64,000 bases of DNA, from positions 18,557,210-18,621,209 of the forward strand of contig NC_053416.1 in assembly GCF_016859285.1 (NCBI RefSeq), written 5' to 3'. The notes beneath the pieces are model-generated. The model was not told the DNA's origin. It searched no databases and saw nothing but the letters and a program-made list of their open reading frames with translations. A program made the translations under genes and the position numbers. Source of the stretch: Xiphias gladius (Eukaryota > Chordata > Actinopteri > Istiophoriformes > Xiphiidae). Of this stretch, positions 16 to 3,100 are shown one piece after another (positions within the stretch are counted from its first letter, which is position 1; each line of letters begins with the position of its first letter).

Positions 16-109
16 GCAAGTATCTATTGAGGAGGGTGAGCGGAAAGCCAAAGAACTAAATGTAATGTTTATTGAGACTAGTGCGAAAGCGGGCTACAAC
101 GTAAAGCAG
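16..109 (+). CDS. rab6a: rab6a alternative exon A (RAB6A-like version)
   Basis: This 94-nt exon lies between the acceptor ctaccacag and the donor CAG|gtaaga. It begins with the last base of an Arg codon and ends in phase 0. Its 31 full codons read [20 protein letters not shown] then [11 protein letters not shown], which matches mammalian RAB6A as I remember it. It carries the G5 motif (TSAK) and the start of helix alpha-5. It is one of two copies of the same exon; see 1111..1204. Confidence 0.9.
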
Positions 110-3100
110 GTAAGAGTGTGTGTGTGAGTCGTGCTCCGTAGTCCTGCTGCAATGCTGCTGCCTGGGCTCCACCTCCAAAGGTCACCTGTCAAAATCAGAG
201 GTTAAAGGTCTAAAATAGTAATTTTGTAAATTTACTACAGTAGCTGTTCCAGCAGATGGATTTTAAAGTCATGGTCTATTTTCTGTCCATAGTTCTAAAG
301 GAATAGTCCAACATTTTGGAAAATAAGTTTATTTTGTTTGCTTACTGACAGTTACATGAGAAGATCGATACCATTTGCATGAATGTACAGTAAATAAGTA
401 GCTAGAACCAGCAGCTGCTTATCTTAACATGAAAACTGGAATGGGGGGGAAACATCTAGGTCTGTCCAAAGATGAAAAAATAAGCCTATCAGTGTTAAAG
501 CTAACTAACTTTTCTAAAGCTCAACTTCTCTGGGACTAGTAAGTTCTTGGAGTCACCACTGGTTGCCTGGGAGCTGGTCCAGGGCCAGAAATAACCTCCT
601 GGAGAATAGCAAATTGACATTTTTACACTTTATGTTTATAATTAAACAAGATATAAAATGTTAATTAGTGAGCGTTAGAGGTGCTGGTAGGCAGATTTTG
701 GCACCTTTGGACAGAGCCAGGCTAGCTGTTTCCTCCTGTTCCAGTCTTTATGCTAAACTAAGATAACCAGCTGCAGGCTACAGCAACTTATTTACCATGC
801 ACACAGGATTGTGGTAGCAGTTGTCTGATCTAACTCTCGGCAAAATGTCAAACTCTTACTTTAAGCCTTCTCTTCCTGTTATGAAATCTCAGCTGACACA
901 ATGAACAGCCAAAGGTTGTCTTGGTTAACTTTTGGTATTGGGCAAAGGTGACAGTAGCAGCAGGAAGGAGCACGACTTATTAATCCACTTCAACATAATC
1001 ACAGTCTGTATTTTTTTTCCCCTTTGTCTTCTTGTCGATGTCTGTGGTGGTATTTGCGTGTCCTCATGGTTGATTGTGTGTCATGCGTGGTTACTCGTGG
1101 CTCATCACAGACAGATAACCACAGAGGAGGGAGAACAGAGAGCGAAAGAGATGAATGTTCTGTTTATTGAAACAAGTGCAAAGACAGGCTACAATGTCAA
1201 ACAGGTAGAGCGTGTGCACCTTTTTGTGTGTGTGTTCATAGTGCTCATGCTCTCTTCTGATTAGCTGCTATTTCACACACGCATGCGTGCCTAAAGGTGT
1301 GCTTTAAACATTGGCTGTCTCTGGTCATATGTGAGATGTGCGAATTTGTTTTTCAAGCTCTCTCCCACTTGCTCATAGTAATGTAAATTTAAATTGGCCA
1401 GCCTTTGATACAGGCCTAGAGGTGGGTCAGGGTTTGCGAATCAATACGTCTCTCTCCAATGATCAGCACATGAAAAGAATTGTGGAATCTGCATGTAATT
1501 AAATTTAGTTCTATGTGATGCTGTTTAGTGGCGGGCGGGAATGTTGAGCATCGTCCTACATTCAACACACTTTTCTTAAAATTCACGTGAATCCATCAAT
1601 CACTTAAAATCCTCCAAGCTCTATCAATGGAAGGTCTCAGTAAGGCACAGTTACATCCTCTTTTCAAGCCACTTCTGCAGTGAAGAAATATGGCCTTGCA
1701 GTAGTTAAAACACATGTTGCCAAATTCAAATCAAATTCTGTGAAGCTCTGTTGGGCGTCTTCCTCTGTATGAGCTTCAAGTGGTCCTTGTGCTAAATCAT
1801 GTAATAGGAAAATACACAGCACACTATTTTGATTTCAACTTTTGTTTTGGTCATGCTGTGAGTATGTTTCCTTGTCTGACAGAACGCATCTGCTTCTCTT
1901 TCCCTCCAGCTTTTCCGTCGCGTGGCAGCCGCCCTCCCTGGCATGGATACCACACAGGACAAGAGTAGAGAGGACAGTATCCTTTGTATACATGTCAGTG
2001 TCAGCGTCTGTCATGACAGAAGAGAGTTAGGAGTTCTCCTTGCTCTCTTATGTCATGTGGATAGTCCCTGCCAGGAGGAAAATCTGGTTCATTGCTGTGA
2101 CAGCTCGCTATTGTTGTTTTAACCAATGTGTCCTTTTTAGATCCACTTTACCAGTGAGGACACACGTTGTGCTCCAACTCACTGACTGCTTTAAGGCTCA
2201 TTTATGCTCAACATTAGATACGTGTACGGACTCTGTGTACATTACGTCCGCGTTAGTTCACTTTTTCTGAAAGGTTATGGATACGGCCAAAACAGAACCA
2301 TACCACTGGCATTGTAGCCAATAGTTCAATCAAGACACAACAGTAGGACACGACGAAAAAATGTTTAAAAATGGTGGAACTTTTTGGGGAGAGGTTGTGC
2401 GAGTTGGTCAGAAATATTAAACATTTATATGATGTTACTTCGTACGTGCACAGGGACAAACAGTTACTACAGAACAGCTGGGAGGAGATTGGATGGGAAT
2501 TACATACATTTGTTGTTGTCAGATATGTTTTACTCTGAGCTGCCTTCTCATGGATTTATTGCTTAACATCCATGCTGACTTAAAGTACGAATGGAAGTAT
2601 GTGGGCAGTGACAGTTACAACGTTTGAAATGGACGTATCTGTTTTCGTAAGGAAAGGGAGCATAAATGAGCCCTTACTGAGTTTAATGTTAAAGGCGTAC
2701 TCCACCAAAGATCTATTTTTTGAGTATCAAATAAATGCTAGGCTAGGCTTAAAAGGTGACTGAAAGGTTTTGTAGGATTTTCCTAATGACAACAGATGTA
2801 GGCAGCTTGGATTTACAGCAATTAAAATATAAAAACATTGAGAAAAAAGCAGTCCCTCAAATAAGAGTTCATCTGTTTTAGCTAATTATGTTCGAAACTA
2901 TAGCGAGGTGTGCTCAAATGTACAAGACTTATAAATAATCATAGTCAGCGCACAAGCAAAAAAAGAGGCAGGAGCACTCTGACAGTTAAGCAGCGCGTGT
3001 GTCTGGGCCGCCTGGAAATACGAGACAGTCTTAGTCAAAAGGACAATCACAATAAATAAAATCTTACAGAATTTGATATACAGTATGTAGCAACACAGCT

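Follow-up and report, generated by a model that had tools for sequence, protein, structure and literature searches.

The window (the whole stretch of Xiphias gladius DNA that was analysed, 64,000 nt) starts inside a rab6a gene on contig C17; the upstream exons of the gene were located in the stretch adjoining the window. The parts of the gene in the window are as follows.

16 to 109, plus strand: exon 6A of rab6a, RAB6A-type, 94 nt (1 + 93), AG before and GT after
110 to 1110, plus strand: intron between 6A and 6B, 1001 nt, GT-AG
1005 to 1108, plus strand: AG-free zone ahead of exon 6B, 104 nt, possible distant branch point region
1111 to 1204, plus strand: exon 6B of rab6a, RAB6B-type, 94 nt (1 + 93), AG before and GT after
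1910 to 1976, plus strand: exon 7 of rab6a, common to both forms (from spliced translation)
3521 to 3585, plus strand: exon 8 of rab6a, encoding the C-terminal part up to GGCSC and the stop (from spliced translation)

Judged against the U12 consensus, the last rab6a intron (1977-3520) resembles a U12-type intron: it has the donor GTATCCTTT at 1977 and, at 3497, TTCCTTAAC. The same donor GTATCCTTT occupies an identical position in each of the four rab6 loci described below. Downstream of rab6a lie a DnaJ-domain gene at about 6404-8090 (DnaJ profile match), two tandem mitochondrial-carrier genes on the minus strand at about 10806-12098 and 15302-16602 (Mito_carr matches, one frame each), which look UCP-like by eye, and a hydrolase-like frame at about 22705-25500, which gave sub-threshold Pfam scores only and looks PPME1-like by eye. 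This gene order fits the human one, RAB6A-DNAJB13-UCP2-UCP3-PPME1. The remnant of a Tc1/mariner-type transposon was recognized at 28292-29130 by a match to the Sleeping Beauty transposase HTH in broken frames.

The two 94-nt exons have the same phase and intact splice sites, and either one encodes residues 135-165 of Rab6a, which confirmed the sequence-only reading of them as two versions of one segment. They are adjacent, internal and homologous, as the members of a mutually exclusive pair are. At the DNA level, 68 of 94 bases are identical and 18 of the 26 differences fall at third codon positions, the pattern of two coding copies under protein-level selection; on this comparison a chance match was rejected as the origin of exon B. 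The assignment of one exon to RAB6A and of the other to RAB6B was borne out as well: the 6A peptide equals human RAB6A at 31 of 31 residues, and 6B has 4 differences from human RAB6B and 8 from its partner 6A over the 31 residues. Spliced translation with 6A alone or 6B alone gave a complete Rab6 of 208 amino acids that ends in the prenylation motif GGCSC. When both exons were joined, the frame broke as had been predicted, with a stop at codon 185, 101 nt ahead of the last junction; when neither was used, the stop came at codon 157, at the last junction. Each rab6a transcript would thus use one exon of the pair, making Rab6a either RAB6A-type or RAB6B-type over residues 135-165, and transcripts with both would carry a stop positioned where nonsense-mediated decay is expected.

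Conservation of the pair was judged from paralogues in the genome of this one species. A search of the 690.8-Mb genome with human RAB6A as the query gave 148 matches among the best 150 of 274 candidates, which were the ones scored; most were other Rabs, and exon-by-exon comparison identified at least four rab6-type loci, named here after their contigs C17 (the window gene), C23, C6 and C14. The C17 gene has a single exon 4 of the RAB6A' kind (I62, A87, A88) and exons 6A and 6B. The C23 paralogue has the A/B exon-6 pair in the same order, with the same frame rule that either exon alone keeps the frame and that both or neither break it. In addition, C23 has a pair of exons 4 whose residues 62, 87 and 88 match human RAB6A' in the first copy and human RAB6A in the second.

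C23:12427701-12427802: first exon-4 copy, I62/A87/A88 (A')
C23:12428314-12428415: second exon-4 copy, V62/T87/I88

Its A' copy carries the change T96A, and its exon 6A has drifted, differing from C17 6A at 5 of 31 residues. At the paired exons the Arg codon is split as AG|G or AG|A, and exon B of both genes has the AG|A junction and a gtagag donor. The C6 and C14 genes are rab6b-like, each with a single exon 4 (V62/T87/V88) and a single exon 6, which is B-type and in C6 identical to human RAB6B at 31 of 31 residues; no relic of an A exon was found in either. Across the 28 comparisons made for relics of lost exons, no match exceeded the best of 10 shuffles by more than one base, and the exon losses are therefore inferred. 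Downstream of the C23 rab6 gene, at about C23:12434000-12437500, lies a STARD10-like START-domain gene (best PDB match, 6ser). The C23 gene may be a copy of rab6a from the teleost duplication, or it may correspond in fish to RAB41, and the STARD10-like neighbour fits either.

Five residues (136, 137, 143, 144 and 159) divide nine exon-6 sequences, the human and fly ones drawn from PDB alignments, cleanly into two types. Fly Rab6, human RAB6A and both fish 6A exons have V, S, R, K and A (A-type), and human RAB6B, both fish rab6b genes and both fish 6B exons have I, T, Q, R and T (B-type). Since fly Rab6 is A-type, this type is suggested to be ancestral. In trees of the nine sequences over the 94 sites of the exon, the B clade had a bootstrap of 92 (protein, rooted with fly) or 80 (DNA, unrooted), and in the DNA tree C17 6B grouped with C23 6B (bootstrap 92). 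Exon B is constrained: C17 and C23 differ there at 12 of 31 third positions, yet only 2 of the 31 residues change (dN 0.027, dS 1.46). dS could be computed for 4 of the 15 exon-6 pairs, the other 11 being saturated, and in those 4 dN was well below dS; in both exon copies the differences lie mostly at third positions. With synonymous sites so close to saturation, exon B must be old, and so must the split of C17 and C23. A decayed or recent exon B was rejected on these grounds, and an origin in this species only, which had been named as an outcome that would refute the pair, is disfavoured, since the paralogue with near-saturated synonymous divergence has the same pair.

Judged by these comparisons, the exon was duplicated before the two fish genes that carry the pair diverged, and the exon tree indicates that this duplication probably came before rab6a and rab6b split, too. 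In the order of events that we propose, the rab6b genes would then have kept B alone and two fish rab6 genes both exons, and the human RAB6A protein is A-type. We thus regard 6A and 6B as homologous exons that form an old, working mutually exclusive pair, of which B later became the sole form in RAB6B, and give this reading a probability of about three in four.

The best of the alternatives, though an unlikely one, is that exon B was copied from rab6b by gene conversion or exon transfer into an ancestral rab6a before C17 and C23 split and persisted there as an alternative exon. In four comparisons exon B has 77 to 83% DNA identity to the rab6b exon, more than the 73% and 70% that it shares with its neighbour A, and the gene quartet on the shared exons, built to place C23, gave no resolved topology (AU p values of 0.59, 0.47 and 0.06; the set of first and second positions weakly prefers another topology, AU 0.80 against 0.34). 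However, exon B differs from the rab6b exons at 14 to 17 of 31 third positions, similar to the third-position divergence of 0.41 to 0.53 over 88 codons in the shared exons, which speaks against recent copying and would make any copying very old. Moreover, the adjacency of the exons, their equal length and phase and the AG|G versus AG|A Arg junctions require no donor gene. An exon duplication that preceded the gene duplication is what the exon tree favours; very old copying also fits the divergence and the quartet.

It is improbable that exon B is rarely used or is a poison exon whose inclusion together with A leads to decay and tunes the rab6a level, with the B protein of little consequence. 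The stop 101 nt before the last junction in the transcript with both exons is what such an exon would give, but B is under protein-level constraint despite the near-saturated synonymous background, B alone restores the full Rab6 frame, and a poison exon would not need to retain RAB6B residues. That the pairs of C17 and C23 go back to two independent exon duplications and converged, as the absence of a long common match between the introns around the pairs would allow, is very improbable given their same order, the AG|A junction and the donor gtagag of exon B, the five common residues and the B-B bootstrap of 92.

AG-free zones were measured, ignoring AGs within 10 nt of the acceptor, at 31 acceptors: 6 of the present pairs, 1 of a formerly paired exon (C17 exon 4) and 24 others. 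The zones of the six paired exons were 46, 104, 76, 128, 194 and 108 nt long (median 106), compared to a median of 34 nt for the 24 others (one-sided Mann-Whitney test, p = 0.0005). This test was prompted by the long zone of C17 6B, itself a member of the tested set; without it, p was 0.0013. Placing C17 exon 4 (140 nt), which had been set aside, among the others gave p = 0.0011, both changes together p = 0.0025 and strict counting of the nearest AG p = 0.019. The zone of C17 6A is ordinary (46 nt), and C23 6B has an extra AG one base ahead of the acceptor AG. The sole long zone among the 24 controls (151 nt) precedes a constitutive-looking exon, exon 7 of the rab6b-like C14 gene. In human introns, zones of at least 100 nt were found in 838 of 67,334; alternative splicing is commoner among these, and one-fifth to one-half were estimated to mark distant branch points (Gooding et al. 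2006, PMC1431707). The zone ahead of exon 6B, whose 5' part contains a pyrimidine tract at about 1006-1037, resembles those before distant branch point exons in being long and lying before an alternative exon, and it differs in that its branch point is a candidate proposed from the AG-free zone. The long zones before the paired exons thus agree with regulated exons. A blastn search for shared intron elements around the pairs (E up to 0.5) gave no match of more than 16 nt. Counts of splicing-factor motifs such as TGCATG and TCTCTC had no background to be compared with and carry no weight here.

Published data on rab6a splicing come from two other fishes. In a long-read study of rainbow trout, Ttyh1 and Rab6a were the two genes named for their top brain-specific splicing forms; its text on Rab6a gives no exon or event type, and a figure legend mentions intron retention and exon skipping (PMC8321248). 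In the liver of Acanthochromis, rab6a was reported as differentially spliced at the onset of a heatwave, with no exon named in that report (PMC8933327). Mammalian Rab6A is ubiquitous and Rab6B brain-specific (PMC7360120). A neural bias of exon B is a sensible prediction by analogy with RAB6B, the brain form.

What might the swapped segment do? Rab6 effectors other than ELKS generally use the switch regions as well. The contacts of ELKS on Rab6B are switch I, switch II, the interswitch and L11/K13 (PMC10267580), and Rab6A and Rab6B bind the same ELKS site (PMC7360120); a change of the effector surface is therefore not the likeliest effect of the exon. Exon 6 encodes residues 135-165, and the RAB6A-like or RAB6B-like effector or GEF surfaces that the sequence-only reading had proposed are not supported. 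As for a GEF interface, no paper on a Ypt6-Ric1-Rgp1 structure was among the literature matches listed. The exon B changes fall in helix alpha-4 and at residue 159, next to the G5 SAK loop, and since residue 159 follows the SAK motif, altered nucleotide handling is possible. GTP binding of Rab6B was reported to be lower than that of Rab6A (PMC3735572). Exon B is more likely to tune nucleotide handling or a non-switch surface than switch-region effector contacts, which is the weakest of our inferences.

The human RAB6A/RAB6A' pair, reportedly a duplicated exon described by Echard et al. in 2000, is the same kind of event in the same gene: two homologous exons swap one segment of Rab6. It spans residues 62-97, whereas the pair in the window spans 135-165. 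Between the structure sequences 4dkx (A') and 3bbp (A), residues 62, 87 and 88 differ; these three fall in fish exon 4, upstream of the window. The exon-6 pair thus lies, as claimed at the outset, at another place than the human pair; it is the exon-4 pair of C23 that covers the three residues. The exon-4 DNA tree gave no firm grouping and joined the two C23 copies weakly (55) rather than A' with A', so that an old age of the exon-4 pair rests on the three shared residues. RAB6B, in human and at C6 and C14, carries the same five marker residues as exon B; it is a gene of its own in which the segment has a single form, whereas the window rab6a has that segment as an alternative exon.

Mutually exclusive homologous exons that are divided after gene duplication are an already known kind. 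Abascal, Tress and Valencia are said to have described in 2015 such a separation of isoforms, in a survey that began from pairs in human genes. The rab6 loci are alike in that one paralogue keeps one homologous exon and another the other or both; a survey of that design would overlook pairs that are known from fish alone. In the listed matches and passages of the open-licence literature searched, no description of an exon-6 pair in rab6a was found, and 'rab6' is absent from the main texts of PMC9741552, PMC4465641, PMC5740500 and PMC8146666. The pair in fish rab6a appears to be undescribed, and the C23 paralogue with two pairs also appears new within this literature.

The comparisons suggest an origin as an alternative exon for a segment that RAB6B, a distinct brain gene, now has in fixed form. 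More tentatively, and at somewhat less than even odds, the ancestral rab6 before the vertebrate RAB6A/RAB6B split may have had both an exon-4 A'/A pair and an exon-6 A/B pair, making four proteins that were then divided among genes, so that the brain-type residues of RAB6B would have begun as a neural alternative exon. RAB6B would then have received an A-type exon 4 with B and mammalian RAB6A the exon-4 pair with A, and the window gene would have retained A' with the exon-6 pair and C23 all four exons. RAB6A and RAB6B are usually viewed as two genes that came from gene duplication. Should exon B have the age that the exon tree suggests, some of what makes RAB6B distinct was first a splice choice in one gene, and living fish would still make that choice. 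The fish gene would also offer a natural experiment: with the same promoter and the same remaining protein but either segment, the effect of residues 135-165 could be separated. Pairs that were lost toward mammals can escape surveys of swappable exons that take human genes as their starting point.
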